A stretch of DNA of 64,000 bases from Parabacteroides faecalis. Lineage in GTDB: Bacteria; Bacteroidota; Bacteroidia; Bacteroidales; Tannerellaceae. Location: NCBI RefSeq assembly GCF_022809355.1, contig NZ_JAKZMM010000009.1, forward strand, positions 1-64,000. Reading direction: 5' to 3'. Shown piece after piece: positions 48,952 to 63,607 of this stretch. Under the pieces are notes generated by a model. That model was not told where the DNA came from, made no database searches, and was given only the letters and a program-made list of their open reading frames with translations. Made by a program: the position numbers and the translations under genes. Every line of letters begins with the position of its first letter. The stretch's first letter is position 1.

Positions 48952-48974
48952 GAGGCGCAGCGCTGCTGCGCCTC
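48952..48974 (+). repeat. REP-like hairpin, copy 1
   Basis: GAGGCGCAGC and GCTGCGCCTC pair in a 10-bp stem with a 3-nt loop. GTA precedes it. The same stem occurs at 59819, 61628 and 61741. It lies 59 bp downstream of the res stop. Confidence 0.7.
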
Positions 48975-49033: not shown

Positions 49034-51724
49034 CTAGAAAGATCTTATTAAATATTCAAAGCTATTTGATCTTTCCACAATATCGTGTCTTAAAAGATGA
49101 TACTTCCAAGGTTTTCCTCCATTTTTAGATGTATATTCTGTCGCATTTTTACAGTATTCTTCTGCAGCAGCTTTTTTGGCTAATACATCCTCTGCTGTTA
49201 GATCTTTTACTGCTTTTGTTTCCACCATGTAAATGCAATCAGAGGTTTCCACAATGAAGTCTGGTTCATATCTTTTTGAACCGTTTGCCCAAAATATATT
49301 GAATTGATTTGGTGCTGGTCTCAACCATCGGATAACATTTTTGTCAGCTTCAAGTACATTTGCAAAATTCAATTCGGTTGAGCTATCAAATTTACATTCA
49401 GTATAGTATGACTTTAAGAAGCCTCTATAAATATACTTCTTCACAAATCCAGGTTTAACAATATCTCTAAAGTCTATTTTGCCAAAACCTTCAAGTTCAG
49501 TTAAATGCTGTTCCACAATACCAGTGAATGGCAATACTTTAGGTTTAAGATAACCTAATGGTGTTATCACAAAGTGTTGTTTCATTTGGTCGTAAATAGT
49601 ATTGGATATAGCCTTTTTAAATTGATTTACAACCTTGGGTAAATCTTCTTCTTTTTCTATATTCTTTCCTATGGCATTTACAGCCTGTTCTGCCAGATGA
49701 TATAAGAGTTCCGAATTATTATCATAGTCTATATCATCATAGTCCATTAATGAAACGACAATTTGATTTACAGGAGATTCAAACTTTCTGCCGGTTTTTG
49801 CTTGTAAAGTTTCAACACTCTTTTCCCCTGCACCTACGCTGACTCTTAAAATTTCGTCTTCTAAAGCGGGTAGGTCAAATCCTATGCGTGTGTCAAGATC
49901 AAACCATTTATATTCAGCTTTATAGGCCTCTTTCTGAATAGTCATACGTGGAATTTCTATGATGTTGTCAATAAAATTCTTTACAACGATTTCCACGACA
50001 TCATCTACTTCTTCCAATAATGGTTTAGCAACCTCATCAGCAAATAAAGGGTCTCTTTCTCTTGCCTTTTTGATAATTTCGCTTCTCGTGTTAGCCTTAA
50101 TCACTTCAATTACTTCAGGTCGTGACAGTTCTTTTGTACAGGATACCTGAGTATTCATTTTAGGTATAACTTCCCATACTGCACGCTGGGCATCCATAAT
50201 TGCACGTGCATTTTGTTTCTCTATTTCAGTCTTAGCTTCTTTGATCGCCTTTTGTTCCTGAAAATCAATAATTGTTGTAGCTGTTACAATCTTGCCCGGC
50301 GTTGTATTTAGTTGATCATCATCAAGTTCTACGTATGAAAACTTGCTCAATACCGAGTTTTTATCATTAGCCTTAGCTATAACCGCTTCAAAATTCTCAT
50401 GGGCAATTACAGTCAGTTTATCTATGTCTGCATATCCAGTGCGCTTTCCATATGGTAATCTTAAACCACGCCCGATTTGTTGTTCAACCAAAATTGGTGC
50501 ATCCGCAGCACGTAATGGCACTATTGTATAAAGATTGGTCACGTCCCAGCCCTCTTTTAACATATTGACGTGGATTACAATCTCTATTTTGTTGTCGGGC
50601 TTTTCCAACGAGAGGAACTGTTTGTCTATTTCTTCATCTTTCTTTGTAGAGCTGTCTATCTGTAGGACTTTACCAGCATACTTTCTGTCAAACATTTCAT
50701 TTTCTATCCTGTTGAATGTTTCCGTTGCATGCTGAATGTTTTTACATACAATTAGAATAAATGGTTTGACTAAAGGTAGATTATTATTTTTAGCAAACAT
50801 TTGAAGGTGCAGTTTCGTATATTCATGCACGCTTATAGCATCTTCTATTTTAAGTATATCCAACTCTTCATCGTTCATATTCCCTCTGCTAAAGTTTTTA
50901 CGTTTAGCAATAGTTGGTATTTTGACATACTTACCATCTAGCAAAGCTTGAGCCAAGTTGTATTCATAAACAATATTCTTGAAAGGTTTACCCTTTTCAT
51001 CTGTAGGCGTGGCTGTCATTTCCAAACCAAGTATCGGACGCAATTCATTGATGGCTTTTCTGGAAGCATCAGCATGATAACGATGTGCTTCGTCCATTAA
51101 AATGACAAGATCATCTAATGAGGAAAGGTAATTAAAATATGATTGTCCTAGGTACTCGGATAATCTTCTCATTTTAGGAGTACCTTTTTTACTTCCTTCT
51201 TTACTCTCGGTATTAAACTTTGAAATGTTGAAAATATTTATCTGAATCTGGTTTTCGGAGAACAGACTTCGCGCCATATCGTAGTTTTCGCCGGTGATAA
51301 TATAAGGTTCATTGTGTACAAACTCAGAAATACCTCGGAAAACATATTTTTCATATGAAGGATCACCAAAGTCTCTCATCAGCTTCTCATACAATGTCAG
51401 GTTGGGAGCCAATATAAAGAAATGCTTAATACCTTTTGCCAGATAAAGATAGGCAATGCAGGCACCCATGAGGCGTGTTTTACCAATACCTGTTGCAATG
51501 GAGAAAGCGAACGAAGGAAACTCGCGCTCGAAATTCTTACATGCAGGGCATATTGCTCTCACTTTACTCAACTGCTCTTCCAAAAAAGCGGCATACGCTT
51601 CACCTGACGGGCGATTTTTGAAGTCCAACTGCTCTACCAGCTTGGCCATTACGTCTAATGCTTCGGCCAAGGGTTCACGCAACGAAAGGCGTTGCTTGAT
51701 ATTGTTACTATAGAAATTACTCAT
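49034..51724 (-). CDS. Type III restriction endonuclease Res subunit
   Basis: The 896-aa protein has a helicase core and a nuclease end. Walker A is SIATGIGKTRLMGA (residues 77-83), DEAH is in VILMDEAHRYHADASRK near 210, then LEMTATPTDEKGK, and IEIVIHVNMLKEGWDVTN with LVEQQIGRGLRLPYG as helicase motifs V and VI. A PD-(D/E)XK site near the end reads YEPDFIVETSDCIYMVETKA. It would cut DNA whose type III sites lack methylation, together with Mod (53662). It is the last gene of the seven-gene operon, 4 bp after ptuB. Confidence 0.92.
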   Translation of the reverse strand: MSNFYSNNIKQRLSLREPLAEALDVMAKLVEQLDFKNRPSGEAYAAFLEEQLSKVRAICPACKNFEREFPSFAFSIATGIGKTRLMGACIAYLYLAKGIKHFFILAPNLTLYEKLMRDFGDPSYEKYVFRGISEFVHNEPYIITGENYDMARSLFSENQIQINIFNISKFNTESKEGSKKGTPKMRRLSEYLGQSYFNYLSSLDDLVILMDEAHRYHADASRKAINELRPILGLEMTATPTDEKGKPFKNIVYEYNLAQALLDGKYVKIPTIAKRKNFSRGNMNDEELDILKIEDAISVHEYTKLHLQMFAKNNNLPLVKPFILIVCKNIQHATETFNRIENEMFDRKYAGKVLQIDSSTKKDEEIDKQFLSLEKPDNKIEIVIHVNMLKEGWDVTNLYTIVPLRAADAPILVEQQIGRGLRLPYGKRTGYADIDKLTVIAHENFEAVIAKANDKNSVLSKFSYVELDDDQLNTTPGKIVTATTIIDFQEQKAIKEAKTEIEKQNARAIMDAQRAVWEVIPKMNTQVSCTKELSRPEVIEVIKANTRSEIIKKARERDPLFADEVAKPLLEEVDDVVEIVVKNFIDNIIEIPRMTIQKEAYKAEYKWFDLDTRIGFDLPALEDEILRVSVGAGEKSVETLQAKTGRKFESPVNQIVVSLMDYDDIDYDNNSELLYHLAEQAVNAIGKNIEKEEDLPKVVNQFKKAISNTIYDQMKQHFVITPLGYLKPKVLPFTGIVEQHLTELEGFGKIDFRDIVKPGFVKKYIYRGFLKSYYTECKFDSSTELNFANVLEADKNVIRWLRPAPNQFNIFWANGSKRYEPDFIVETSDCIYMVETKAVKDLTAEDVLAKKAAAEEYCKNATEYTSKNGGKPWKYHLLRHDIVERSNSFEYLIRSF

Positions 51725-51728
51725 ACCA

Positions 51729-52385
51729 TCAATGCTTGTTCCAGACTATTTCATCTTCAAACTCTGTTTCCAAATGATTATCGCGGATTACCCAATACTT
51801 GAAACCCAGCATTTCTTGCTCAATGGACAATTCGGCCGCCACCAAAGCCCGGTTGGCTGGTGTTGGTTCCATCAGAAATGCGTTGACTTTCTCCAAAAAG
51901 TTATTCATAATCTGCTTGGTATAATCAAAAAAACGTTTTTCCTTAATCGTACGTATAATTTGTTTTCCGCTGTGAATCAACCTCCCATTATACAAAACAT
52001 GAAGCATATTAATTGTATTTCTATGTATCACATCTTCAATCATACTCAAAAAAACGGCTTCGTTTTTCTCAAAGTCAATTCTTTGAATTATCTCATCCTC
52101 TATATTAATAACTGACGGATAAATATTATCATCAAAAGAATTTCTTTTCTTTCCATTACAATATCTACAAGATAAAAACAAGTTACTCCAAGTATTGGTT
52201 AATATAGGATAATTCTTTTGACTTCTATAATGTTCTATTTCAAAATCTGTGATTAACCGACGCTCACAAATATAACATTTCTCGTGTTGGTCCTCCAGTA
52301 ATTGAACTTTTACATCCTCTCCATCATATTGAGAGGTAGTCAACAAGGAGGATGGTATTATTCCGCTCTTTCTTTCCCTGATCAT
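51729..52385 (-). CDS. ptuB: HNH endonuclease, PtuB-like (TIGR02646 type)
   Basis: The 218-aa protein has the zinc HNH core of PtuB: EKCYICERR (Cys37, Cys40), then EIEHYRSQ with the catalytic His52, then YPILTNTWSNLFLSCRYCN (Cys73, Cys76, Asn77). This is the pattern of the TIGR02646 family that pairs with a PtuA ATPase in Septu anti-phage systems and in retron Ec78. Its start overlaps the ATPase stop by 4 bp (ATGA), which implies coupled translation. The Septu role is by homology of the pair; the position inside a type III R-M operon is unusual. Confidence 0.85.
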   Translation of the reverse strand: MIRERKSGIIPSSLLTTSQYDGEDVKVQLLEDQHEKCYICERRLITDFEIEHYRSQKNYPILTNTWSNLFLSCRYCNGKKRNSFDDNIYPSVINIEDEIIQRIDFEKNEAVFLSMIEDVIHRNTINMLHVLYNGRLIHSGKQIIRTIKEKRFFDYTKQIMNNFLEKVNAFLMEPTPANRALVAAELSIEQEMLGFKYWVIRDNHLETEFEDEIVWNKH

Positions 52386-53626
52386 GGCAACACTGTTTTA
52401 AGAACCGACGCATATCTGTTTCTGATTGCCATATAAGTTCCAACCAAGTTGGGCGAAACCGACTCCGGCACTTTATTCAAATCCTCAACAAGCTGCCTGA
52501 TGTCATATTTGTCTGAATCGGTCAAGCTTTCTTTCTGTAATAACGATTCAAGTCTTTCTAGCTGCATTTGCATATAGCTGGAATCGGAAGAAACTCCAAA
52601 ATAACCTTCAGCCAAAGTCTCGTAAGAGTATTGGGTCAATTCATTGATGGTTTCCCGATGCTCCAAATCGAATGCCACGGCGTTGTCCAACGAGTTGAGT
52701 ACAAATGGCGAATGTGTCGTAATAATGAACTGTATGTTAGGGAACACCTTCGTCAGGAAAGGCATAATCATCTTTTGCAATTCCAGATGCAGATGGGTTT
52801 CCACTTCGTCTATTAACACAATTCCTTCTTTTTGATAGGCGCGTATTAAATTATCTTTTCCTTGCATTTTAAGAATCAAGTCAACCACAATATCTAATAT
52901 AGCGGCATAGCCATCAGATAATTGCGTAAATCTGAATTCTTTTCCTTCAGTTTGAATTAGGAAGCTATAATTTTTATGATTAAACTTTAATCGCAACTCC
53001 TTATCGTCATAGATCTGTTTAAGAAGATTTTCAAAATTAATGAACCATTTATTTATTAGTTCCGCATCTTTAAGTTCTCCTTCATTGCGCGCCAATGCTT
53101 CTTGAATCTTTAGGTCTGATAGGAAATTAAGGAATTGATTCGTTACGGTTTTTTTTACGGCTCCTTTGATTTCATAAGTTGGTTTCGTAGGGCTTTCTGG
53201 CTCTATCATTTCTGGTTTTCTTGCAGCTTGATAAAAAGCAATAATGAAATTACCCTCTTTGTAAGCATTAATTATATCTACCACATTAACAAAATCCAAT
53301 TTGACTTTTCCATAAAGCGTATTAAACTTCATTTCGTAAAAATCAATACCATTTTTTACACTCATCAATTCCTTATCATCCTTTACACCATCGTCTAATC
53401 TCCTTTTTAAATAATTTAAGTTAACCTCGTATTTTGTAAAATCCAACGTTTTATCATCTTTGATTCTTTCCAGAAAATCCGCTATCGCATTCAGCAACAC
53501 CGTTTTTCCACTACCATTCTTACCCGTTATCATCAAATGGGGCGCTTGTTCGTCGGCAATGGGTATATCGAAGTTCTTCAGATGGAACAATTCGTTGACA
53601 TGTATATTTTTAATGAAGTAATTCAT
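52382..53626 (-). CDS. ptuA: SMC-like AAA ATPase, PtuA-like
   Basis: The 414-aa protein has Walker A LMITGKNGSGKTVLLNAI (residues 35-42), a signature-like region FTQLSDGYAAILDIVVD, Walker B GIVLIDEVETHLHLELQ near 265-280 and the H-loop FIITTHSPFVLNSLD. This is the RecN/AAA_21 type that drives Septu. It is shorter than some PtuA proteins and has no visible extra nuclease domain. It is translationally coupled to the HNH gene. In known systems PtuA holds or activates PtuB, which cleaves nucleic acid after phage infection. Confidence 0.85.
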   Translation of the reverse strand: MNYFIKNIHVNELFHLKNFDIPIADEQAPHLMITGKNGSGKTVLLNAIADFLERIKDDKTLDFTKYEVNLNYLKRRLDDGVKDDKELMSVKNGIDFYEMKFNTLYGKVKLDFVNVVDIINAYKEGNFIIAFYQAARKPEMIEPESPTKPTYEIKGAVKKTVTNQFLNFLSDLKIQEALARNEGELKDAELINKWFINFENLLKQIYDDKELRLKFNHKNYSFLIQTEGKEFRFTQLSDGYAAILDIVVDLILKMQGKDNLIRAYQKEGIVLIDEVETHLHLELQKMIMPFLTKVFPNIQFIITTHSPFVLNSLDNAVAFDLEHRETINELTQYSYETLAEGYFGVSSDSSYMQMQLERLESLLQKESLTDSDKYDIRQLVEDLNKVPESVSPNLVGTYMAIRNRYASVLKTVLP

Positions 53627-53661
53627 ATGTTTATTCGTTTATATTGATTCATAATATTATT

Positions 53662-55419
53662 TTATTCTTCTTCTAATTTATCCTCACATTCCACTTCGGG
53701 CACTTCGATGATATTCAGCGAATAATCATCCTTGCCAAACTCGCATCGACCCAACAACATTTGAGGGATTTTCTTGATGGAAATATTGTTGAAAGCTTGC
53801 TTGCATTCGCGCTGAAACGACGTGCAGCAGATAAGCAAGGATTCATCTTCCGCCATTGTTTCATGAATGGCCGTCAACGATTCGACTGTTAGGAACTGAG
53901 TCGTCGTGTAGATATAATCCGTTTCTGAGCCATATCCTTGTTTCCAGTAAACTTCTGCATCAGGTTGGTATGTATATCCTTCCTGCTTGGCCATTGCTGC
54001 AGCAAGCATATCTGCATTATATTCTTTGTTAATTACTGGATTCCCGAACTTGTCTTCTTTAAGGAGGCTTGGTGCTAATTCATAGAACTTAAATCCACTT
54101 CCACCACTCCAGTTCTGAGCCTTGCTTATGCCACCTTGATCTGTTCCATCTGTAACTTTCTTAAGACGAGGAACGCAATGAGTGTAGGCATGGTTACCAA
54201 GTTCTATACCGATATAACGTCTTCCCATTTTTTGGGCTACAGCAGCTGTGGTTCCAGAACCTAGGAAACTATCTAATACTATATCTCCAGGATTTGAAGC
54301 AAGAAGTAATATTCTTTCGATTAATTTTTCAGGCTTTTTACCTCTTGGAAAATTTACTCCTCCTTCGTTCCCAAGGTCTGATTTTGGTATATCATCATTC
54401 TTCCAAACATTTGATAATCTTGTTGTTTTAACTATATTACCATTTTCAATGTAAGCTGTATCTTTTAGCCATGCACACAATTCCGCATTATAATAATATA
54501 AAGTAGTGTATATATCTTTATTTTTCCCTCTATTTGGAATATATTCAACAGAATATAGAGAATTTTTTGACATTTTACTCATGAGCTTGTTTTGAAATTC
54601 ATTTTCTTGTTGAATGACATATGTTCGGAATAAACTATCAAAATTGTTTTTATAATTTTCTCTTATTTCTCCTTCCCTTTTATCGAAATTTGCTAATGAG
54701 ATAGATTCTACTTTATAATTATTGTGTCTGAAGATTTTTACTGGAAGTCCATTTGAAGGTGCAAGGAATTCTTCTATTAATTCTTTTTCACCTTTATCAA
54801 TAAGGACCTTGTTATATCTTTTCATAGTCTTTTGTTCTAATATAGTAGAACCAAGAACTTCATTGAGTATGAGATTATTCTTTTTATATACAAGGATTTT
54901 TTCTCCAGTATTGAAAAAAGCCCCCCCTTGACCAAGACCAGAAACGCTTGATTTTTCGTAAGTTATATCTACAACGAAATTGTTCCGGTTAAAAATCTCA
55001 TCACATATTACCTTTAGATAGTGCCCTTCTGTATTATCTATACTAATCCATAAGCTTCCATCCTCCGAAAGTAAATTATGTAGAATACAAATTCTTTTAT
55101 ACATAAGATTTAACCATATTGAGTGCTCAATATTATCATCATAATGTTCAAAAGCATTACCAGTATTATAAGGAGGATCTATGTAGATGCATTTAACTTG
55201 CCCTGCATAGTCTTGTTCAAGAGCTTTTAATGCAAGTAGATTGTCGCCATGTATCAGCATATTACCTTTCCAAGGCTTACCATTACGTAAAACTCCAGTT
55301 TCAGGTTCACCGTAGGAGTATTCTTTATTCTCAATAAGAATACGAGGTTCCAATGGTTGGCGTTCATCATTCTTGCCAATCCAAGTCAATTCCAGTTTAT
55401 ATGTATTATTTTTTGTCAT
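53662..55419 (-). CDS. Type III DNA adenine methyltransferase Mod subunit
   Basis: The 585-aa protein has methyltransferase motif IV DPPYNTGNAFEHYDDN (residues 81-84 for DPPY) before the SAM motif I DSFLGSGTTAAVAQKMGRR near 380-395. This beta-class order is usual for type III Mod, an N6-adenine enzyme. The middle third (about 150-330) is the target recognition domain. It contains a G7 tract followed by a T6 run on the coding strand at 54927-54915 (GQGGAFFNTG), a possible slippage site. Mod both protects DNA and sets the site for Res (49034). The operon order is mod, ptuA, ptuB, res. Confidence 0.93.
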   Translation of the reverse strand: MTKNNTYKLELTWIGKNDERQPLEPRILIENKEYSYGEPETGVLRNGKPWKGNMLIHGDNLLALKALEQDYAGQVKCIYIDPPYNTGNAFEHYDDNIEHSIWLNLMYKRICILHNLLSEDGSLWISIDNTEGHYLKVICDEIFNRNNFVVDITYEKSSVSGLGQGGAFFNTGEKILVYKKNNLILNEVLGSTILEQKTMKRYNKVLIDKGEKELIEEFLAPSNGLPVKIFRHNNYKVESISLANFDKREGEIRENYKNNFDSLFRTYVIQQENEFQNKLMSKMSKNSLYSVEYIPNRGKNKDIYTTLYYYNAELCAWLKDTAYIENGNIVKTTRLSNVWKNDDIPKSDLGNEGGVNFPRGKKPEKLIERILLLASNPGDIVLDSFLGSGTTAAVAQKMGRRYIGIELGNHAYTHCVPRLKKVTDGTDQGGISKAQNWSGGSGFKFYELAPSLLKEDKFGNPVINKEYNADMLAAAMAKQEGYTYQPDAEVYWKQGYGSETDYIYTTTQFLTVESLTAIHETMAEDESLLICCTSFQRECKQAFNNISIKKIPQMLLGRCEFGKDDYSLNIIEVPEVECEDKLEEE

Positions 55420-55423
55420 ATTT

Positions 55424-55990
55424 TTAAAGATTATTCCAAATTGAAGGATTAGTTAATAAACTAGCTATAATGTTAGACATCACAGATTCCCCAAAGTCTT
55501 TAATTTTTTCTATTATTTTAGGCTTCAACAAATCAGCATTATTATTAGTTTCTCTTGCTAGGTTCTTTAATTCATTATACTGTTCTTGGGTCAATGTCTC
55601 TCTAAGAATATTATGGATTGTGTGTATTTCTTGGGTTTGCTCTTGTGTTTGACTTATATTAATATAAGTCTTAGGTGTTGCCTTTTCTTTTGGACAGCAG
55701 CCTGGTATATCTCTTAATGATATAAGGATAGCAATTAAATTATAAATAGTTTCTTTACTTATTTTCTTATTAGACAATTCATTAAATCTTGCCAATGCTA
55801 TGTCCTTCGGAAAATTTATTTGAATGAATCTTTTTGATTTTTCAACCCAACCAAAGAACTTTTGCCCGTCTTCTATATAATAAGAAGCTTCATGTAGAAT
55901 ATTCATGCCATCACGATACTCGATGTATGGTTCGCTATATTTAATTTCAAACGATTCACCTTCTTTTATTAAATCTTCTATTGTAACCAT
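55424..55990 (-). CDS. Unknown protein in the defence operon, 188 aa
   Basis: I do not recognise a family. The N-terminus is acidic and polar (IEDLIKEGESFEIKYSEPY). The middle reads KSKRFIQINFPKDIALARF. The second half is mostly helical (TQEQYNELKNLARETNNNAD). It has no membrane segment or obvious catalytic motif. It starts 2 bp after the membrane protein ends and stops 4 bp before mod, so it is firmly part of the operon. Possible roles are a sensor or specificity partner for the helicase or the membrane protein. The gene is more AT-rich than its neighbours. Confidence 0.75.
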   Translation of the reverse strand: MVTIEDLIKEGESFEIKYSEPYIEYRDGMNILHEASYYIEDGQKFFGWVEKSKRFIQINFPKDIALARFNELSNKKISKETIYNLIAILISLRDIPGCCPKEKATPKTYINISQTQEQTQEIHTIHNILRETLTQEQYNELKNLARETNNNADLLKPKIIEKIKDFGESVMSNIIASLLTNPSIWNNL

Positions 55991-55992
55991 AA

Positions 55993-56841
55993 TTATAGTT
56001 GTATTATTTTATTTATTTTTTCTTGCTCATAGTCCAACAATTCAAGTATAGTTTTCTGAATATTATCTGCCTTAATATTCCGCATAGCTTCTTTCATCCT
56101 TGTTGATATGATTTCTTTATTCTTACTTGATATTTTATAATCATACTCGATTATTATATCCCAAATTCTTCGACTTTTGGATATATGTGTATGTTCCTCT
56201 TGCTGATATTTTTTTGTTTTACTTTCGTACATTCTCCTTAGTGTATCGTCACTACCATTATGACCATATACTTCAAATACATACCAGTCAAGATCTTCTA
56301 TCAAAGCGCAGAATTCATCCGAATATGACTTTAATTTTTCAATGATATTGCTTTCTTCTTTAGTTAATTGATTTGAGAACATTATTCCTTTGGAGAAATC
56401 TGCGACATTAAAATTATCAATGATTTGTTTTAGTGATGCTCTAGTTTCTTTAATTTGAATATATGCAATTGTTTCTTTTGTAAGCATTCTGTTTGCAATT
56501 GCATTTATATCATTTAAACTAAAAGACTTATAATATTCTGCAAGCTTTGTTTTCAACTCAGTAAGCCATTGGCTTTTTTGTTGATACTTCAGAATATTAA
56601 TTTGAAGGTTTCTGTTATTTTTATTTTCATTTTGATTCTGGCTTAATTGTTTGTGCAGAACATAGAATGCTATGCAACTGCTTAGAACCGTACCTATATA
56701 TGCTCCCCAAAAGTTTAACCAATCTGTATCTTTTCCTACAAATTTAAATATAGCTGGCTTTAATATTAAGCAATTAATTATAATAGGTACACTTATAATA
56801 AGTAAAATAACCCACCAGTATTTTTTTAGTATATCTATCAT
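55993..56841 (-). CDS. Membrane-anchored unknown protein in the defence operon
   Basis: From the ATG at 56841 the product is about 282 aa; an ATG at 56856 overlaps the SNF2 stop and gives five more residues. Two hydrophobic helices are near the N-terminus (WWVILLIISVPIIINCLIL and WGAYIGTVLSSCIAFYVL). About 200 residues of charged helical sequence, likely coiled coil, follow (HKQLSQNQNENKNNRNLQIN and the C-terminal KADNIQKTILELLDYEQ). This layout of two membrane helices and a helical soluble part is common among membrane components of anti-phage systems, but I cannot name a family. Confidence 0.75.
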   Translation of the reverse strand: MIDILKKYWWVILLIISVPIIINCLILKPAIFKFVGKDTDWLNFWGAYIGTVLSSCIAFYVLHKQLSQNQNENKNNRNLQINILKYQQKSQWLTELKTKLAEYYKSFSLNDINAIANRMLTKETIAYIQIKETRASLKQIIDNFNVADFSKGIMFSNQLTKEESNIIEKLKSYSDEFCALIEDLDWYVFEVYGHNGSDDTLRRMYESKTKKYQQEEHTHISKSRRIWDIIIEYDYKISSKNKEIISTRMKEAMRNIKADNIQKTILELLDYEQEKINKIIQL

Positions 56842-59702
56842 TATTTTAATTTCCATTTTATTGTAAATAAATTTTCCCAGCTTACTTTCTGCTTCAACAT
56901 CTTTTCAATCTTATCAAGCAACATATCTTTCTTCTCATCAATCTCATCTTGTGCTTCATAAAGATACTGTCGTTTCTCGATGCGTTTTTTCTCCAGCTCC
57001 TTGATTGCCCGCTGTGCAGAAACTTTTTCATCAAGGCGGATTATCTTTTTAGCTTCAGATTTTCTCAAGCGTATTTCCTGATCGAGGTCTGAAATTTCTT
57101 TTTCAAGACCGAGTTTCATATCATCTGCCCAATTATCCAGCTTGTCCATTTCTTCATCGAAGAATTTACTGTTTCTTTCAGCAGAATCAGCTACTATCTC
57201 ATTTTGCATCTCAGAAATCTTTTCATGCAAAACTTCTTGAATATTATTCTCAATTACTTCAGTACCTAGTTTTTCTGCCGGAAGACTTAACATTCGTTCT
57301 GCTATATCTGGATATACGAGACTTCCATCTTGTTTAAGACAAGCTATAACAAGGTGATCTTCTTGTTCAAATGAATCTATCGTAATCTTTTCTACTTGCA
57401 TATAGCCTTCACTTCCGATCAACTCATCTAAAAGTTTCATCTTCCCTTCAGTTTCAGTGTAATGAAACTCTACTAATCCAGATTCTATTTCATAAGACTT
57501 GCAAGCTGTAATAATTTCTTTAGCTAAAGGATGCCCCATCCGAAATGGTTGCAGATTCTCAACATTAACTGCGTCTTTTGCCAAAGTGAATTTTTCACCG
57601 GCATATTGTCCGCTTTCAATCTCAAAAGAGTAGTCTGTTTGGTTAAACACGGCTTTATCTTTAAAAGCATGTTGTACTAGCAACCACAGATTTTTTTCGA
57701 ACAGACTCAGATTTTTTTTGCTTTGGGCCAAATTGTCCCTTAGTTTTTCTTTAACCGATTCATCAAAGTTTTCCAACAGTGCAGAACGGGCTTTTATCAT
57801 CTTTTCTGATATTTGCTCTTGCAATTCTGCTTGTAAAGTATCAAAAGCCTTTTCAATTTCTTCTGTTGTCCGACATTCGTTATAAATTTGGGCTATTCGT
57901 TTCTCAAAATCAACACCATTTCCGATACTTCCTAATACCTCATCACTTGCTCCAAAAACTCCATTAAACAGTTGGAATTTCTCATCAAGCAATTGATATA
58001 CACGTTTATCCGCAGCATTGCCTTTGTTTAAGAAATTGATAACCACAACATCAAACTTTTGTCCGTAACGATGACATCTTCCTATTCGCTGTTCTATCCT
58101 TTGTGGATTCCAGGGCATATCATAGTTTACTATTAACGAACAGAACTGAAGATTTATACCTTCAGCAGCAGCTTCGGTTGCAATCATAATTGTAGCCTCA
58201 TTTCTAAAATAATCTACTAAAGCTGCTCTTCTGTCTGCCGTTGGTGATCCAGTTACTTTGGATGTTCCTTTGTGTACGGTCAGCCAATCATTATAGATAG
58301 CTGTTGATTCTTTATCAGCATTGGTCCCGTTAAAGCGTACAACTTTTCCCTTAAAACCTCTCTTTTCTAACAGCTCATAGAGAAATTCCTGTGTACGTTT
58401 AGATTCTGTAAAGATTAGAGCTTTCTGCGCAGCTCCTAAGTTCTTTAATTGCTCAAACCCTTTATCAAGCGCAACAAACAGATGCTCAGCCTTGCTGTTC
58501 TTTTTAATTTTCTCAGCCAGGTCTCTAAACTGTTTCAGTTCCTCAATCTCTTTTTTTATTCCTTCGATATCATCAGGATGAAGCTCTTCTGTTTCTTCAA
58601 TTTCTGTTTCCTCTCTATCTACCCATTGGTCATTGTCTTCTTCATATTCTGCTATAACTTCATTCTCTAATGAATACAAAGAATCAGCTTGAGCCAATAT
58701 TTCTTGTAGACGATTGATAAGTGAACAGAATGTTCCATAAATCGCATATGTAGAAGAAGCCAATAGTTTGCGAAGTATCAGTGTCATCAATTGCCTCTGA
58801 CTATTTGGAAGAGCATAAAGTTGAGGTTTGCTTAAATACTCTGTAACCATATCATACAATCGTTGTTCATTTTCTGTCGGATAAAACTCTTCAACAATTG
58901 CAATGCGTTTGGTATATTTGATATATTCGAGAACTTGTCTTCTTAAAGTTCTTTTACATACAGGTTGTAATCTTCTTCTTAGCTCATGAAACTCTGCTTC
59001 AGTCAAATTATGACCAAACTGACTTTTAAAACTCTTTAGGTCTCCAAATACATAATCGTCGATAATGGAAACCAAACCATATAACTCCAGAATGGAATTT
59101 TGTAATGGCGTAGCAGTCATCAGAATTTTCTTCTTTGAAGCTATGGCTGCTTTTATGGCATTCGCTGTTTTATTCTGCGGTTTATATACATTTCGAAGTC
59201 TGTGAGCTTCATCTATAATGACCAAATCCCAATTGGTGCGCTTTATATATGCAGCCTTTGTCTTTGCAAATTGCAAAGAACAGATAACGATATTTTCTGT
59301 ATCGAATGGATTAAAACAACCTTCTTCTACGGCTAAACTAAAAGACTTTGATTCCATTATAACAGACGGAAGATAGAATTTGTCCAACAATTCGCTTGAC
59401 CATTGTTTACGCAAATTGGCCGGACATATTACCAGTAATCTTCTTTTGTGTTCAGACCAGTGCTGAGACAAGATAATACCGGCTTCTATGGTCTTACCTA
59501 ATCCAACTTCGTCAGCAAGGATTGCGCCATTAGACAAGGGAGACTTAAATGCAAATAGAGCCGCTTCCACCTGATGCGGTGTCAGATCTACCTGTGCATC
59601 CTGTAATGAAGCCGTTAACTTATTTAAGTCATTGGCTGGAAGTCTTCTTGTTAGTAGGTTTGCAATATATTTTGCCTGATAGTCTGTTATATTATAGTTC
59701 AT
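56841..59702 (-). CDS. SNF2-family helicase of the defence operon
   Basis: From the ATG at 59702 the protein is 953 aa. An ATG at 59726 is upstream but overlaps the -7 box, so 59702 is preferred. Motifs are GAILADEVGLGKTIEAGIIL (residues 64-71 for the Walker A), LVIIDEAHRLRNVYK near 165, MTATPLQNSILELYGLVS, and the second lobe TEAAAEGINLQFCSLIVNYD with PQRIEQRIGRCHRYGQ. The C-terminal ~300 residues are strongly helical, likely coiled coil (LDQEIRLRKSEAKKI). Such RapA/SNF2-like helicases accompany several restriction systems. It is the first gene of the seven. Confidence 0.9.
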   Translation of the reverse strand: MNYNITDYQAKYIANLLTRRLPANDLNKLTASLQDAQVDLTPHQVEAALFAFKSPLSNGAILADEVGLGKTIEAGIILSQHWSEHKRRLLVICPANLRKQWSSELLDKFYLPSVIMESKSFSLAVEEGCFNPFDTENIVICSLQFAKTKAAYIKRTNWDLVIIDEAHRLRNVYKPQNKTANAIKAAIASKKKILMTATPLQNSILELYGLVSIIDDYVFGDLKSFKSQFGHNLTEAEFHELRRRLQPVCKRTLRRQVLEYIKYTKRIAIVEEFYPTENEQRLYDMVTEYLSKPQLYALPNSQRQLMTLILRKLLASSTYAIYGTFCSLINRLQEILAQADSLYSLENEVIAEYEEDNDQWVDREETEIEETEELHPDDIEGIKKEIEELKQFRDLAEKIKKNSKAEHLFVALDKGFEQLKNLGAAQKALIFTESKRTQEFLYELLEKRGFKGKVVRFNGTNADKESTAIYNDWLTVHKGTSKVTGSPTADRRAALVDYFRNEATIMIATEAAAEGINLQFCSLIVNYDMPWNPQRIEQRIGRCHRYGQKFDVVVINFLNKGNAADKRVYQLLDEKFQLFNGVFGASDEVLGSIGNGVDFEKRIAQIYNECRTTEEIEKAFDTLQAELQEQISEKMIKARSALLENFDESVKEKLRDNLAQSKKNLSLFEKNLWLLVQHAFKDKAVFNQTDYSFEIESGQYAGEKFTLAKDAVNVENLQPFRMGHPLAKEIITACKSYEIESGLVEFHYTETEGKMKLLDELIGSEGYMQVEKITIDSFEQEDHLVIACLKQDGSLVYPDIAERMLSLPAEKLGTEVIENNIQEVLHEKISEMQNEIVADSAERNSKFFDEEMDKLDNWADDMKLGLEKEISDLDQEIRLRKSEAKKIIRLDEKVSAQRAIKELEKKRIEKRQYLYEAQDEIDEKKDMLLDKIEKMLKQKVSWENLFTIKWKLK

Positions 59703-59723
59703 TGAAATATCTTCTAATTTGTA

Positions 59724-59755
59724 CAAAAATAGTTGATTTTGTTATGCTCATCAAG
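59724..59755 (-). promoter_or_regulatory. Promoter of the seven-gene defence operon
   Basis: On the minus strand CTTG (59755-59752) is followed after 20 bp by TATTTTTG (59731-59724). The first base of the ATG at 59702 would be about 15 nt from the start. No other promoter is obvious inside the operon. Confidence 0.6.
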
Positions 59756-59818: not shown

Positions 59819-59841
59819 GAGGCGCAGCAGCGCTGCGCCTC
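59819..59841 (-). repeat. REP-like hairpin, copy 2
   Basis: GAGGCGCAGC, 3-nt loop, GCTGCGCCTC. The flank CTACAGTC on the right shows that it is oriented opposite to copy 1. It lies in the gap between the defence operon promoter and the gene at 59946. Confidence 0.7.
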
Positions 59842-59945: not shown

Positions 59946-60632
59946 TCAACTTTCAAACGGCAAGCGCACCAATGAATTGAAATACTGTTTCAATAACCAT
60001 TCCTGGGCTTTGAGCTTGATCATGGCCTGACGATCATCTTCGCTGATGTGCAGCGTGTTTTGTGGCCGCCAACGGGAAAACTGTGCCATCGCGTTGAGTT
60101 TTTCTTCCAGGCTGTTACGGATAAAACCGCGGCTTTGCAAGTCTTTATACAGAATACTTGCCAACGGAATTTCCAAGTCCGGGCAATTCTTGTATTCGTG
60201 AAACCGTCTGATGATCAGCAGGTTCATCTTTTCCTCATTGTATTCGCGGCTCACCGCCGGCAAGGCTTTGACTTCCTTTTCCTGTTCTATCTGTTTGATC
60301 ACCCGATAGCGCAAGTCACTGTTTTTGTAGCCTTTCAGCCATTTATGAAAGGTCCGGTAATTCAAACCGATGTAATCGCCAAACTGTTCTTGTGCGCCCA
60401 GTTCGAAGCAAATTGAGATTTCTTCCAGGCGTAAGAAACCACAATTCTCGTATATATCGCTCACCAATTTCGCGGCCAAGACGGAAACATCTTCCTTCAC
60501 TGGCGTTTTGAATCCCAACAATACGTAGGTTTCCAACAACAGATCAATCATTCTGCCGGTTACAAACTCACTGTCAAGCTGTATAATCGGTGGTTGCCTC
60601 AAGGCTATTTTCAATCGTGTATCCAAAGCCAT
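59946..60632 (-). CDS. Hypothetical protein, 228 aa, paired with a DUF4373 protein
   Basis: I do not recognise a family. The middle (FGDYIGLNYRTFHKWLKGYK) looks like a short helix-turn-helix of replication or phage-type proteins. The end reads RLPFES. The start at 60632 overlaps the DUF4373 stop by 59 bp; an alternative ATG at 60551 would remove the overlap. DUF4373 proteins are linked to phage or plasmid replication, so this could be a partner in that process. The perfect palindrome at 59907-59938 lies just after its stop. Confidence 0.65.
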   Translation of the reverse strand: MALDTRLKIALRQPPIIQLDSEFVTGRMIDLLLETYVLLGFKTPVKEDVSVLAAKLVSDIYENCGFLRLEEISICFELGAQEQFGDYIGLNYRTFHKWLKGYKNSDLRYRVIKQIEQEKEVKALPAVSREYNEEKMNLLIIRRFHEYKNCPDLEIPLASILYKDLQSRGFIRNSLEEKLNAMAQFSRWRPQNTLHISEDDRQAMIKLKAQEWLLKQYFNSLVRLPFES

Positions 60633-61545
60633 TGTTTTCGTACATTTTTTTGGTTAATAATTTCGCTTCTGCCGCCACTTCCATCATTTCTTCGTATCTC
60701 GATTTGCGCGCCGCCGGTTTTTTATATTCCGTGCGTGGCGGCGCCATGTTTTTAGCAGACTTCGCGCCACTTAAAATTTGCATATCTGTTTCCCAATTAT
60801 TGTGGCGCCACCAGGCGATAAATCCTGATTGGTACTCTTTTTTAGTCTGAACCGTGTTTTGAAGGGCGCGCAACACATTGATATCGTCAAAACAATTCAT
60901 AGCTTGATGCGTTTTATCCAATAAAGACAATCCTTTTCCGCTAATGCGGATCAAAGTAGCGCACCAGTCTTCGTCATTCAGTAATTCCATTTTCCATTGA
61001 TCCCATTCAGCTTTTAACGATTGATCGTTCTCGCGCGCACGCGCGTTACTCTCTCTCTCAATTAAATTTATACTTTCATTTTCTTTACTTTCCTTTCCTT
61101 TTCTTTCCTTTACTTTACTTTGTGGCATTTCTTCCGAAATAACTGGGGGTTTTTCGGTCGATAATGGGATTAAAATATACAATAAGTCTTTTTCTAATCC
61201 CTTGTAGCTATTGCCTTTAACCGTAAAATATCGCTTTTGGATAGAAGGCGATGTCAAAATGAGTGAGTTTCGCAAATTTTTGTTAAAGAGATCAACTTCC
61301 ACCATAAAGTCTATCATTTCCAGGATGGTTTTGTCTCGTTTGTGAAACTGATCCGCCAAGTCAAAGATGTATTCATCGCTCAACTCGATGAAGTAGGAAT
61401 TACGATAAATGTCCGTCAGGAGTTGCAGATATAAAACAAATCCCAATTCTCTGTATTTACGTATTAATTTTCTGATTTTTATGTTTTTCAGAATATCGGT
61501 GTCTGTTGGGAAATAATCTAATCCCAATTTTATAGGTCTTGCCAT
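60574..61545 (-). CDS. DUF4373 (Lin1244/Lin1753-like) phage-type replication protein
   Basis: The 323-aa protein begins MARPIKLGLDYFPTDTDIL and has FVLYLQLLTDIYRNSYFIEL, the DUF4373 N-terminal winged-helix pattern of phage replisome organisers. The centre is a charged low-complexity stretch (KVKERKGKESKENESINL) encoded by a CTTT-rich run at 61088-61122, with a (CT)n stretch and GCGCGC nearby. The C-terminal ~120 residues are helical. It marks this tract as prophage- or plasmid-like. No integrase was seen in the window. Confidence 0.75.
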   Translation of the reverse strand: MARPIKLGLDYFPTDTDILKNIKIRKLIRKYRELGFVLYLQLLTDIYRNSYFIELSDEYIFDLADQFHKRDKTILEMIDFMVEVDLFNKNLRNSLILTSPSIQKRYFTVKGNSYKGLEKDLLYILIPLSTEKPPVISEEMPQSKVKERKGKESKENESINLIERESNARARENDQSLKAEWDQWKMELLNDEDWCATLIRISGKGLSLLDKTHQAMNCFDDINVLRALQNTVQTKKEYQSGFIAWWRHNNWETDMQILSGAKSAKNMAPPRTEYKKPAARKSRYEEMMEVAAEAKLLTKKMYENNGFGYTIENSLEATTDYTA

Positions 61546-61620
61546 ATTTTTCTTTTTGTTAGATTGTTAATTTTTTATTGTTTGTTTTTTTCTTCCATTT
61601 ATCCATAGAACTTACCCCGC

Positions 61621-61770
61621 GACTGTAGAGGTGCAGCGTGCTGCGCCTCAAAACGGCGTTTCATGCAAACAAATGACAATCAATAAAATAATGAATGAAT
61701 TTATTGTGTTATTTGTCGTTTTATCCTGTCGCGTTGGCTGGAGGCGCAGCACGCTGCGCCTCTACTCGCA
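61621..61770. repeat. REPIN-like pair of inverted REP hairpins
   Basis: Two GC-rich hairpins (61628-61649, GAGGTGCAGC with GCTGCGCCTC; 61741-61762, GAGGCGCAGC with GCTGCGCCTC) face each other. Their GTA flanks point outward. The 91 bp between them also carry an imperfect inverted repeat (CAAATGACAA with TTATTTG), so the whole 150 bp can fold into one long hairpin. No gene is predicted in this 298-bp gap (61546-61843). Confidence 0.7.
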
Positions 61771-61824
61771 TTGGGTATGTTCAACGAATAAATTCCGTGT
61801 AATCCGTGAAATCCGTGCCAAATT

Positions 61825-61858
61825 AATTGTCAATTGTCAATTCTCAATTTTCAATTGA
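61825..61858. repeat. CAATT-type repeat at the 3' end of the DUF559 gene
   Basis: A run of TTGTCAATT / TTCTCAATT / TTTTCAATT units. Its TTCTCAATTTTCAATTGA part (61841-61858) is the same as 63590-63607 and provides the stop codon and last residues of the gene at 61844. Confidence 0.55.
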
Positions 61859-62182
61859 TGAAGTTGTCAATTTCTTTCTGCATGCCCGTACTATTTGCTG
61901 AATCGTCTTCACCCGCAATAATTCGGACGGAATGGTTCGTATAACAAGCCAGCCGCAAGCGGCTGCCTCGTTATACTTTTCCATATCCCGCAAATAACCT
62001 TCGGGCCGGAAATGGCGACCGCCATTCCAAACGCCGCCTTCCACTTCGATCGCCACGCGGACTGCCGGTATGGCAAAGTCAAAACGCCATTCGCGCGTCG
62101 GGTGAAAGCGGTATTCACGCTTGGTTTCCAAACCTGTCAGGTTATAGATTTCCCGTTCAAGGGGCGAAAAGTTCTTCTCCAT
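61844..62182 (-). CDS. DUF559 endonuclease-like protein, 112 aa
   Basis: A small protein with the DUF559 (very-short-patch-repair-like) core: EWRFDFAIPAVRVAIEVEGG (a D...E-x-E nuclease site) and AACGWLVIRTIPSELLRV. The last residues (SIEN) come from the CAATT-type repeat. Its start overlaps the gene upstream (62157) by 26 bp. The family occurs in mobile and phage regions; its exact role is unknown. Confidence 0.8.
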   Translation of the reverse strand: MEKNFSPLEREIYNLTGLETKREYRFHPTREWRFDFAIPAVRVAIEVEGGVWNGGRHFRPEGYLRDMEKYNEAAACGWLVIRTIPSELLRVKTIQQIVRACRKKLTTSSIEN

Positions 62183-62429
62183 CGATCAAATAATCAGTTG
62201 CTTCATCGACTGTTTTACAGGTCGTGACAAAAAGTGCTCCCATGCGGTTGTCGAAAACAACCCATCGGTCTTGCCATGACTCATAAAAATAGCCGAATTC
62301 GTTTTGCTTGGAATTGTACTGATAACGCCGCGAACCACGTTCGCCGTCCACCAAATCGAAGAAGCAGCTGGCTGCTGCCGTACCAATCAAACAACCGGGC
62401 ATTATCCGGTCTCTAACCTCGTCGTCCAT
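62157..62429 (-). CDS. Hypothetical protein, 90 aa
   Basis: The product reads GCLIGTAAASCFFDLVDGER near the start, then WQDRWVVFDNRMGALFVTTC. I do not recognise a family. It overlaps the DUF559 gene by 26 bp, which suggests translation together. It could be a small phage or mobile-element protein. Confidence 0.5.
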   Translation of the reverse strand: MDDEVRDRIMPGCLIGTAAASCFFDLVDGERGSRRYQYNSKQNEFGYFYESWQDRWVVFDNRMGALFVTTCKTVDEATDYLIDGEELFAP

Positions 62430-62467
62430 AGATTTTCAATTTTTTGTACTGTTTTGAATGTTGTATC

Positions 62468-62547
62468 AAACACAGAGCACGGAGATACAGAGTTTTTATT
62501 TTGTTCAAAACCAATAAATTCCTCTGTGGCTTTGTGCCTCTGTGTTT
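62468..62547. repeat. Inverted AAACACAGAG repeat in a short gap
   Basis: AAACACAGAG at 62468-62477 and its complement CTCTGTGTTT at 62538-62547 frame about 60 bp. Similar CTCTGTG-rich stretches are found dispersed in many bacterial genomes. It could be a weak terminator of the gene at 62571. Confidence 0.45.
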
Positions 62548-62570
62548 TTATTCATACACTTCGCACCTGT

Positions 62571-63047
62571 TCAATTTGCCAGTACGTTAATAAACGAATC
62601 CGATTCAAACCGTTTGCCTTCCGTGATATACAGAAGGGCTTCGCGTTCGCAGAATGAGAGGTCGTCCATCAGGCGTTCCAGCCATTCATACGTATCCTTG
62701 CCGGTGTTGACACGTACAGCCAGATTGATCGGGCACGTGGTGTCGGTACGCAAACCGGCATAGATGTTAATAATTTCCGAATTGCCGCTTGGCTGGCGGT
62801 AAAACCCGTCCACATATAAGCCTGGTATTTTGCTATGGGTGAGTTGTTCTACATGGAAAAGTAAGTTTTGCATGGCAAGACCTAGTTCTTCATGGATGGG
62901 GGCGTCATTCATATAGGTGTTTTGAAAGGCGTCGTTGTTTTCCGGATTGTACTGATCTACTTTGACTTTCAATTTGTTATCTCGTATGGAGATCAGCATG
63001 AATTTCTTTTCTGTAATCATAGAAATTTGTTTTTGTATATTTTTCAT
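62571..63047 (-). CDS. Hypothetical protein, 158 aa
   Basis: The product begins MKNIQKQISMITEKKFMLIS and contains PGLYVDGFYRQPSGNSEIIN and CPINLAVRVNTGKDTYEWLE. I cannot place it in a family. The middle looks like a small mixed alpha/beta fold. It is in the same strand run as the DUF559 and DUF4373 genes and is probably part of the accessory element. The composite inverted element lies just upstream. Confidence 0.6.
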   Translation of the reverse strand: MKNIQKQISMITEKKFMLISIRDNKLKVKVDQYNPENNDAFQNTYMNDAPIHEELGLAMQNLLFHVEQLTHSKIPGLYVDGFYRQPSGNSEIINIYAGLRTDTTCPINLAVRVNTGKDTYEWLERLMDDLSFCEREALLYITEGKRFESDSFINVLAN

Positions 63048-63074
63048 TTTTTGGTTTGCTATAAGTGATTGTCC

Positions 63075-63583
63075 GTTCTTTCTGGCTTGACCCAGAAAGA
63101 ACCAAAGAAGTCAAGATCGTATTCGTTCTTTTGGCTTGACCCAAAAGAACCAAAAGGTCAAGGCTCACACTCCGAAGGCTACGGTCTCGGTTGCTACGCT
63201 AAAATCTCGGAAAACTCGCCTTCGGCTCAGACAGCCGAGATTTTTTAACGCTCCGCTCGGTCGACCGCTTAACGCCTTCTCCGTTAGGCCAAATCAATGG
63301 ACAATTGACAATGGACGATTGACAATTCATTAAGTACGAATTTCACGAAATTTGTTTTTGAATATGCCGATTGAAGAAATTGTCCATTGTCAATTCTCAA
63401 TTATCAATTGAGGGCCCGGCCTCGTTCTGGTGAGCGTTAAGCGGAGGAACGAAGTGGAGCGGCCGGAGCGTCGCTGTCTGAGCCGAAGGCGAGTTTGCGG
63501 CGCGCACAGCGAAACGCAGTGACGGAGTAGCTCAGCAGACGCAGCCTTGAACTTTTGGTTCTTTTCTTTCAAGAGAAAAGAAC
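63075..63583. repeat. Composite inverted element with covarying end hairpins
   Basis: About 510 bp without a gene. The left side has two hairpins with loop CTTGAC (63075-63102, stem GTTCTTTCTGG; 63125-63150, stem GTTCTTTTGG). The right side has a third, inverted copy (63558-63583, stem GTTCTTTTCT, loop CTTGAA on its own strand). Inside, 24-bp perfect inverted arms lie at 63212-63235 and 63473-63496, and CCGCTTAACGC at 63265-63275 is repeated inverted at 63434-63444. The centre has CAATT-type repeats. It may be a MITE-like element or a structured RNA. Confidence 0.7.
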
Positions 63584-63589
63584 AGGCAA

Positions 63590-63607
63590 TTCTCAATTTT
63601 CAATTGA
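63590..63607. repeat. CAATT-type repeat at the 3' end of the last gene
   Basis: TTCTCAATTTTCAATTGA, the same as at 61841-61858, covers the stop codon of the gene at 63600 and supplies its last Asn. Confidence 0.55.

Follow-up and report, generated by a model that had tools for sequence, protein, structure and literature searches.

The seven genes on the minus strand of the window (the whole 64,000-nucleotide stretch of DNA analyzed) probably constitute a type III restriction-modification (R-M) chassis, with a DrmD-like SNF2 helicase gene first and embedded defense cassettes in two fixed slots, and likely serve layered defense (Table 1). Judged from sequence, they seem to be one frame with exchangeable parts and not one fixed machine. 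The row is not a random heap either, as slot open reading frames (ORFs) are nearly all on the chassis strand. Defense genes embedded in other defense systems are already published; no description of a two-slot chassis, or of Septu nested in type III R-M, was found in the accessible portions of the open-license PMC literature.

Table 1. Features of the operon (positions in the window)
Feature	Position	Strand	Basis or remark
TATTTTTG box, possible Bacteroidales -7 element	59724..59731	-	Read from sequence
SNF2-family helicase, DrmD-like, first chassis gene	56841..59702	-	ORF 56841-59726; ATG 59702 likelier start, TTG 59726 less likely alternative
Membrane protein, slot A cargo 1	55993..56841	-	ORF 55993-56856; ATG 56841 likelier start
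188-aa protein, slot A cargo 2	55424..55990	-	ORF list
Type III Mod	53662..55419	-	PADLOC MTase_III, Pfam N6_N4_Mtase
Mod hypervariable middle, presumed target recognition region	54340..54939	-	About residues 161-360
PtuA ATPase, slot B cargo	52382..53626	-	PADLOC PtuA PDLC00268
PtuB HNH nuclease, slot B cargo	51729..52385	-	PADLOC PtuB PDLC00323
Type III Res, last chassis gene	49034..51724	-	PADLOC REase_III, Pfam ResIII
Slot A, exchangeable, SNF2 stop to Mod start	55420..56840	-	Locus survey and DNA comparison
Slot B, exchangeable, Mod stop to Res start	51725..53661	-	Locus survey

Gene content of the operon

The earlier note described seven intact, tightly packed genes on one strand, with PtuA and PtuB (PtuAB) nested between Mod and Res, and this description was correct. 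All ORFs are on the minus strand and either overlap or are separated by 2 to 35 bp (gaps of 2, 4, 35, and 4 bp from the coordinates); the PtuA and PtuB genes share 4 bp, and TAATG joins the SNF2 stop to the following start. The gene identities given there agree with the best PADLOC models (DrmD, MTase_III, PtuA, PtuB, and REase_III), and all catalytic motifs looked for were found in the operon proteins. The “single clear promoter” was overstated: a candidate -7-like box, TATTTTTG, matches TAnnTTTG, which we take to be the Bacteroidales -7 pattern, but a sigma-70 scan gave 50 sites against 43.6 (SD, 7.0) in shuffled sequence. The SNF2 TTG start falls within this box, and the SNF2 frame starts near the later ATG in 15 of the 21 relatives listed. 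A fixed 16-bp overlap of SNF2 with the next gene was dropped as an ORF-calling effect because the overlapping ATG arises within conserved SNF2 end codons. Junctions of the TAATG or ATGA type occur at many loci. The SNF2 motifs GLGKT and DEAH are invariant in all 38 alignment rows.

Mod and Res have the features of type III R-M, i.e., Mod motifs with a recognition region between them and a ResIII-family SF2 helicase next to Mod. Mod matches MTase_III (PADLOC, 3.5e-161) and N6_N4_Mtase (Pfam, 152.5 bits), and the order of DPPY (81), variable region, and FxGxG (FLGSG, 385) is that of an N6/N4-type DNA methyltransferase of the beta order; its solved relatives are 6k0w and EcoP15I (4zcf). In 33 aligned rows, with columns filled in at most one third of rows scored 0, residues ~161 to 360 are 5 to 29% identical to the window per 20 residues, and identity elsewhere is 42 to 93%, except in the last block (28%). 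The Mod middle is also a gap in pairwise DNA comparisons. Res matches REase_III (PADLOC, 1.5e-160) and ResIII (Pfam, 81.2 bits; cutoff, 22.5) and contains GIGKT and DEAH. Its C-terminal PD-(D/E)XK-like stretch scores just below the cutoff of RE_endonuc (22.9 versus 23.4 bits), with PDF (821) and ETK (835) present. A “Putative helicase” (7clg) is its one, weak, solved relative at an E value of ≤0.001.

PtuA (PADLOC PDLC00268, 4.2e-122) and PtuB (PDLC00323, 6.5e-85) are an ATPase and an HNH protein in one operon, as in Septu type I. PtuA has a Walker A motif, LSDG, and LIDE, and its solved relatives are the PtuA of retron I-A and PtuA 8ee4; PtuB matches Pfam HNH (28.9 bits; cutoff, 21.4), and its solved relatives are retron PtuB proteins. 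The NCBIfam retron Ec78 models score far under their cutoffs (PtuA, 120 of 500; PtuB, 38 of 150). No reverse transcriptase, which would indicate Septu type II or retron I-A, is among the seven genes, and the neighbors of PtuAB are Mod and Res. A PtuA search of 395 genomes of the same class recovered its own genome and one relative at 36%, and a search of plasmids recovered two relatives at 30 to 38%.

The two slot A proteins match no family above the cutoff in PADLOC, Pfam, or NCBIfam. The membrane protein has hydrophobic N-terminal helices followed by a helical domain, and its predicted model is all-helical (mean pLDDT, 80.2). Relatives occur at L035, L037, and L076 (29 to 36% identity) and at L046 and L068 (20 to 22%); the membrane-protein cluster (c3), built by single linkage, is mixed. 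The 188-aa protein is predicted to have an N-terminal helix-and-strand domain and a C-terminal helical domain (mean pLDDT, 74.1). Its C-terminal part recurs in other contexts, and it has no match in plasmids at an E value of ≤1e-3. Of the 42 slots A that are visible, two contain relatives, accompanied by PDC-M04 at L036 and by PDC-M29 at L066 rather than by PtuAB. Neither the membrane protein (Fisher P = 0.26) nor the 188-aa protein (P = 0.50) is linked to PtuAB in 40 loci including the window, where cases are few and power is low.

Chassis and slots in related loci

The survey counted 74 related Mod loci, excluding the window itself and the rows L020, L021, and L022 (contigs equal in length to those of L042, L062, and L068) and L088 (equal to that of L065), which were dropped beforehand. 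Fifty-three loci were found with peptides of the window Mod and therefore lean to close relatives. Res is directly downstream of Mod in 69 of the 74 loci, and in the remaining five the contig ends ≤546 bp from Mod; the Res proteins of L028, L029, L073, L078, L080, and L081 are highly diverged from that of the window (28 to 46 bits). SNF2 is upstream of Mod in 42 loci (counting short fragments in L047, L082, and L150), and SNF2, Mod, and Res occur together in 39. No SNF2 is seen in 30 of the 69 Res loci, although upstream sequence of 5.9 kb or more is available in 19 of them; in nine of these, tblastn detected no SNF2 remnant.

Slot contents were taken as mechanical ORFs, chosen matches first and then longest first, and a slot was called empty if it had no ORF of ≥100 aa. 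Same-strand ORFs of ≥100 aa, of many kinds, fill slot A in 34 of the 42 loci with a visible SNF2. Slot B is empty in 34 of the 69 Res loci and contains PtuAB in 10 and other cargo in 25. Slot B is empty in all nine Bacillota loci, so the cargo habit is not general to Mod-Res pairs. Almost all slot ORFs of ≥100 aa (122 of 123) are on the chassis strand, a count favored by a cargo query set that came from plus-strand ORFs. Where cargo matches a family, that family is mostly of defense type (PtuAB, PDC-M29AB, HEC-01AB, PDC-M04AB, YhcG/PDC-S02, PDC-S13, GmrSD/HEC-06, PD-Lambda-2_B-like, and AIPR/AbiU-like). For several of the slot A families, PADLOC gives no match, and because many slot A genes lack a family, their defense label rests on position. 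The slots also point to families without a PADLOC or Pfam match that are candidate new defense genes.

SNF2 and Res share a common inheritance. Their identities are correlated (r = 0.91; 33 rows), a value raised by the very divergent rows L031, L071, and L075 and reached in none of 2,000 permutations. Cargo, including PtuAB itself, is exchanged between loci. In nine chosen pairs differing in slot A, similarity stops ≤30 bp from the SNF2 stop (≤6 bp in eight) and returns ≤14 bp from the aligned Mod start. One of four pairs differing in slot B (L035/L076) lacks a clean border there; similarity is lost 94 bp short of the Mod stop and returns inside a shared gene of ~355 aa. L032 and L059 have 97% identical Res proteins, with PtuA and PtuB only 55% and 56% identical; at the DNA level, which was compared for two pairs, their HEC-01 genes are 84 to 100% identical and the Mod middle is 44 to 51% identical. 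In the pair L034/L055 the Mod middle differs and PtuAB is the same, and a proposed link between PtuAB allele and Mod specificity was dropped.

The 50-row Res tree implies a minimum of 20 changes in the slot B label and the 31-row SNF2 tree a minimum of 16, both trees being quick LG+G4 reconstructions with long branches. The label is nevertheless more clustered than in shuffles, of which 0 of 200 (Res tree) and 4 of 200 (SNF2 tree) were as low. Furthermore, PtuA and Res identities give an r of 0.47, with 152 of 5,000 permutations as high, in nine rows (the window and eight of the 10 loci with PtuAB and Res; L055 and L082, with short Res, were left out). Together, this clustering and the PtuA-Res signal indicate that cargo is partly inherited. 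Because close relatives of the chassis carry different cargo, the loci offer a natural series in which the dependence of embedded defense genes on their host system can be addressed directly.

Possible modes of action

In a layered-defense chassis, Mod would mark self DNA, and Res with Mod, perhaps assisted by SNF2, would cut unmarked DNA, with the slots taking varied effector modules tightly fitted into the chassis gene row. R-M would be the first line and PtuAB the second, which may attack DNA or tRNA once phage DNA passes R-M, much as PrrC backs EcoprrI. A single transcript, the nature of the trigger, and the biochemistry assigned to each gene are inferred. PtuAB and R-M acting in parallel, uncoupled, is a real possibility that falls short of probable, and direct coupling, with R-M failure releasing PtuAB, is doubtful; both estimates concern the last mechanistic step only and overlap with the layered-defense reading. 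A convenient landing site would give the same picture as silencing of PtuAB by R-M or reporting by PtuAB on R-M, which counts against the layered-defense chassis. The earlier note instead took the seven genes for one composite system, to be given up if PtuAB proved absent from most such operons or the extra genes varied freely. In such a composite, three dedicated helper genes would assist PtuAB, an abortive effector under the control of Mod marking, as intact genes, close spacing, and overlaps might suggest; L046 even has six of the seven gene types in order, without the 188-aa gene and with a membrane protein 22% identical. However, PtuAB is missing in 59 of 69 Mod-Res loci and in 32 of the 39 that combine SNF2, Mod, and Res (present in seven), the slot genes vary freely among related loci, the same seven-gene order occurs in none of the 74 Mod loci, and the 188-aa relatives never lie beside PtuAB in their slots. 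This free variation largely refutes the composite, which is highly unlikely, and a “seven-gene system” described from one genome may be a chassis plus passengers.

Independent defense modules could also be stacked passively in one gene row, the slots being tolerated insertion sites with no functional coupling. HEC-01, PDC-M04, YhcG-like, and AlbA-type cargo occupies slot A at some loci and slot B at others, filling of the two slots is unrelated (Fisher P = 1.0; 40 loci including the window), and distant PtuAB relatives stand without Mod or Res at L087 and L090, all of which makes a passive stack credible, if somewhat less than probable. Against it, cargo genes almost invariably share the strand of the chassis and lie at gene borders. 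In addition, the searches started with PtuA recovered no close relative outside operons of this kind, a weak argument because they recovered no further one inside them either; all 10 PtuAB loci were recovered via Mod. Alternatively, chassis proteins may keep PtuAB inactive until anti-restriction or loss of Res or Mod frees it. According to excerpts of PMC2610378, the R-M enzyme linked to PrrC keeps it silent, and neutralization of the enzyme by phage T4 Stp activates PrrC. Induced retron-Eco7 PtuAB stops growth and depletes tRNA-Tyr, according to excerpts of PMC11555353, so the PtuAB of the operon, if alike, would have to be kept latent. Such a guard is nevertheless rather unlikely: the R-M type differs, slot B cargos are mutually unrelated, so that a common docking surface is not evident, and the Mod middle can change while PtuAB stays (L034/L055). 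It is more improbable still that SNF2-Mod-Res is a dedicated carrier whose two gene borders are docking positions for modules kept latent and freed on R-M failure. If so, the swapping Mod middle would make the carrier an immune platform of three cassettes, with the unnamed slot A families as new effectors. The DrmD-like SNF2 (best PADLOC model DrmD, 9.9e-200) could indicate a DISARM variant, but SNF2 is under the cutoffs of both NCBIfam DrmD models (DISARM_DrmD_b, 668.6 versus 950 bits; second model, 260.7 versus 610 bits). Genome-wide, the DrmA model scores best on the SNF2 gene itself, followed by weaker matches of helicase-like kind, and this model also matches in 13 of 14 control genomes. 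Neither DrmB nor DrmC appears among the best models for the seven operon proteins. To our knowledge, DISARM has no Res gene. DISARM was rejected on the DrmD cutoffs and the DrmA search and is extremely unlikely. Hma was also rejected, as SNF2 scores only 180 bits to HmaA (664 bits to DrmD) and Mod is an N6_N4_Mtase; Hma consists of the HmaA helicase, the HmaB m5C methyltransferase, and the HmaC ATPase (PMC8565338). For HmaC, the comparison covered the best 25 of 115 models for PtuA.

Comparison with known systems

The operon resembles embedded defense systems (“guilt-by-embedding,” HEC and PDC families; Payne et al. 2024, as cited in excerpts of PMC12988326 and PMC12629846) in that defense genes lie between the genes of another defense system and are absent or replaced in relatives, and several cargo families bear HEC or PDC names. 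One example of embedding named in excerpts of PMC12255303 is “Septu in Hma systems,” whereas the host here combines SNF2 with type III Mod and Res and has two slots and a Mod middle that swaps. The same excerpts describe DarTG2 in an Escherichia coli type I R-M operon, which shares a defense module between R-M genes and a common promoter but differs in R-M type, the repressor RptR, and the position of the cargo between hsdS and hsdR.

PrrC of the EcoprrI locus is likewise a nuclease of the second line whose gene is linked to R-M genes and lies inserted in their row, as described in excerpts of PMC2610378. There, the R-M system is type I rather than type III, and PrrC is a tRNA-Lys anticodon nuclease whereas PtuB is an HNH protein. 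MORC R-M operons combine an SNF2 helicase and an HNH nuclease in one predicted R-M operon but are defined by a MORC ATPase (excerpts of PMC2292703), which is not among the seven genes. PtuAB shares its ATPase-HNH pair and best PADLOC models with Septu type I but sits in a type III R-M operon and is exchanged as a cassette. Similarly, Mod and Res are shared with EcoP15I-like type III R-M, of which the EcoP15I Mod is a solved relative, but here an SNF2 helicase gene lies in front and cargo lies between mod and res.

The operon in the window

All seven genes are intact and lie on the minus strand in the order SNF2 helicase, membrane protein, 188-aa protein, Mod, PtuA, PtuB, and Res, confirming the one-strand arrangement read earlier (coordinates are in the table). 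Mod, Res, PtuA, and PtuB have strong PADLOC model matches, and the same models place the SNF2 protein as DrmD-like. These identities from the earlier note stand; the membrane and 188-aa proteins have no family match above any cut-off (PADLOC, Pfam, and NCBIfam). The operon proteins carry motifs for ATP binding and for methyl transfer as well as those of HNH and PD-(D/E)XK nucleases, although the Pfam RE_endonuc score for Res is slightly under the cut-off. Judged by family membership, Mod and Res would carry out restriction-modification (R-M). The case for a single clear promoter is weaker than proposed: a sigma-70 scan singled out no promoter.

The membrane protein is modelled as all-helical (mean pLDDT, 80.2). 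The model of the 188-aa protein, built from just three aligned sequences (mean pLDDT, 74.1), shows a helix-and-strand domain at the N terminus and a helical part at the C terminus. The C-terminal part has matches in 6 other genomes of the order (7/393 with its own), and no Mod or Res was found near these matches in the five neighbourhoods read.

Features of the operon, its flanks, and related loci
Feature	Sequence	Coordinates	Strand
Seven-gene operon	window	49034 to about 59702	-
ATG, more likely start of SNF2	window	59702	-
Near-palindromic 23-bp repeat	window	48952-48974	-
Near-palindromic 23-bp repeat	window	59819-59841	+
Segment upstream of operon	window	59946-63986	
Slot protein without PADLOC match	L041	7950-9998	
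Slot protein without PADLOC match	L061	11664-12782	
Slot proteins without PADLOC match	L064	8796-10023	
Slot protein without PADLOC match	L040	9127-10014	
Slot protein without PADLOC match	L076	8289-9122	
Slot protein without PADLOC match	L033	4506-5210	
Distant PtuAB pair	L089 (Persicobacter plasmid)	8992-10899	

A probable shared chassis with two slots

SNF2, Mod, and Res probably form a chassis with exchangeable cargo in slot A (between SNF2 and Mod) and slot B (between Mod and Res). No published description of it was recognised in the literature search. Related loci (L numbers) include 53 in named genomes, found with the window's Mod, and further ones from draws of whole genomes; removal of three duplicates left 74 loci, the window not counted, among whose Mod proteins no pair aligned at >97% identity. 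In whole-genome draws that include the window's own genome, Mod occurs at E≤1e-60 in 12/393 genomes of the order and 13/375 of the phylum. The operon is patchy, since only 2/38 genomes of the genus, own included, have a Res match. The same-genus relative in Parabacteroides sp. ZJ-118 (L065/L088) encodes a Mod of 558 aa and appears decayed: its first Res frame is just 449 aa, SNF2 is absent, and no HEC-01A frame was detected beside HEC-01B. L082 is likewise fragmented into short frames.

The seven genes had been proposed as one composite defence operon, and their order recurs in 0 of the 74 loci. Res lies downstream of Mod on the same strand in 69/74, and the remaining 5 reach the contig end within 546 bp of Mod. 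SNF2 is upstream of Mod in 42/74, three being short fragments (L047, L082, and L150). It was not seen in 30 of the 69 loci with Res, 19 with ≥5.9 kb of upstream sequence and 11 with <3 kb; tblastn found no SNF2 remnants in 9 of those 19. A same-strand ORF of ≥100 aa occupies slot A in 34/42 loci. Slot B is empty (no ORF of ≥100 aa) in 34 of the 69 loci with Res, holds PtuAB in 10, and holds other cargo in 25; with both SNF2 and Res present (39 loci), the counts are 14, 7, and 18. Slot B is empty in 9/9 loci labelled Bacillota, eight of them without SNF2, and the cargo habit is mainly seen in Bacteroidota. The chassis strand is shared by 122/123 slot ORFs of ≥100 aa, a count with query bias, as the cargo query set was made from plus-strand ORFs, which favours them.

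Slot B cargo comprises PtuAB, PDC-M29AB, HEC-01AB, PDC-M04AB, a family of ~355-aa proteins with weak SIR2-type matches, YhcG nuclease (PDC-S02), an AlbA-type protein, and an SMC/Ppl-like protein. Slot A carries membrane proteins, the 188-aa family, HEC-01AB, PDC-M04AB, Bro-N/PDC-S13, GmrSD/HEC-06, a weakly HigB-like protein and an HTH-M78 protein near PD-Lambda-2_B, OLD-TOPRIM (L071), AIPR/AbiU-like plus ATPase (L144), and several unnamed families. A 2024 preprint on embedded defences, as cited in PMC12988326, is the source of the HEC and PDC names. HEC-01, PDC-M04, YhcG-like, and AlbA-type cargo is found in slot A of some loci and slot B of others, and modules are also stacked (PtuAB with HEC-01 in L032 and L059; PDC-M04 with the ~355-aa gene in L076). 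The six tabulated slot regions yielded nothing above cut-off in a Pfam scan that left out the second L064 gene; by position, their proteins are candidate undescribed defence genes.

Exchange of cargo and of the Mod middle

On the Res tree (50 rows), the slot B label changes at least 20 times (least possible, 10), against a mean of 25.0 for shuffled labels, with 0/200 shuffles as low; on the SNF2 tree (31 rows), it changes at least 16 times, where the minimum is 8 and shuffled labels average 19.0, with 4/200 shuffles as low. The label has therefore been swapped often, yet non-randomly. DNA borders were compared for nine chosen pairs that differ in slot A, four of them in slot B content too. Similarity stops ≤30 bp from the SNF2 stop in 9/9 pairs (≤6 bp in 8/9) and restarts ≤14 bp from the aligned Mod start in 9/9. 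At slot B, it stops 10-42 bp past the Mod stop and restarts 7-10 bp before Res in L041/L057, L059/L058, and L045/L058; the border is less clean in the fourth pair, L035/L076. Mod residues of about 161-360 form a third hole, with 5-29% identity to the window per 20 residues (33 rows), and this variable middle is what a target recognition region would be expected to show. SNF2 identity follows Res identity (r=0.91; 0/2000 permutations as high; 33 rows), and PtuA identity follows it less (r=0.47; 152/5000 permutations; 9 rows).

PtuAB is a cassette in its own right. Identity between L032 and L059 is 97% in Res versus 55% in PtuA and 56% in PtuB. Their DNA divergence spans PtuA and PtuB and stops at HEC-01, where DNA windows are 84-100% identical; the two also differ in the Mod middle. 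L041 and L056 share 95% in Res versus 67% in PtuA and 51% in PtuB. Among 395 genomes of the class, PtuA had a single other match at E≤1e-40 (L087; 36% identity), adjoining genes that by eye resemble histidine biosynthesis. Among 72,556 plasmid records, it had two at E≤1e-20: an E. coli record (L090) without Mod or Res near the match, and L089. The L089 pair lies within an apparent type I R-M operon, its R-M genes judged by eye, which looks like a second kind of R-M host for PtuAB.

Embedded defence and the flanks of the operon

One defence system embedded within another is an established arrangement. Septu type I is reported as a frequent companion of Hma (PMC8565338); examples given of embedding are “Septu in Hma” and, within type I R-M, DarTG2 (PMC12255303), PrrC is placed in type I R-M (PMC12629846), and BREX and related loci are described as carrying backup nucleases (PMC12839542). 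PrrC is kept silent by its R-M partner and activated once phage Stp neutralises that partner (PMC2610378). By analogy with PrrC, PtuAB may be a backup against phages able to overcome restriction, either coupled to R-M or simply co-located with it.

The 23-bp repeat flanks the operon in inverted orientation, and 100 shuffles gave 0 such pairs. The genome holds 19 copies with ≤2 mismatches (reversed control, 0) and, on contig C3, a further inverted pair with a spacing of 8 kb. The segment upstream of the operon, four proteins of which have no PADLOC match, encodes small unknown proteins and a Lin1244_N/DUF7833 protein, which we take to be of phage or element type; the segment is perhaps a mobile element.
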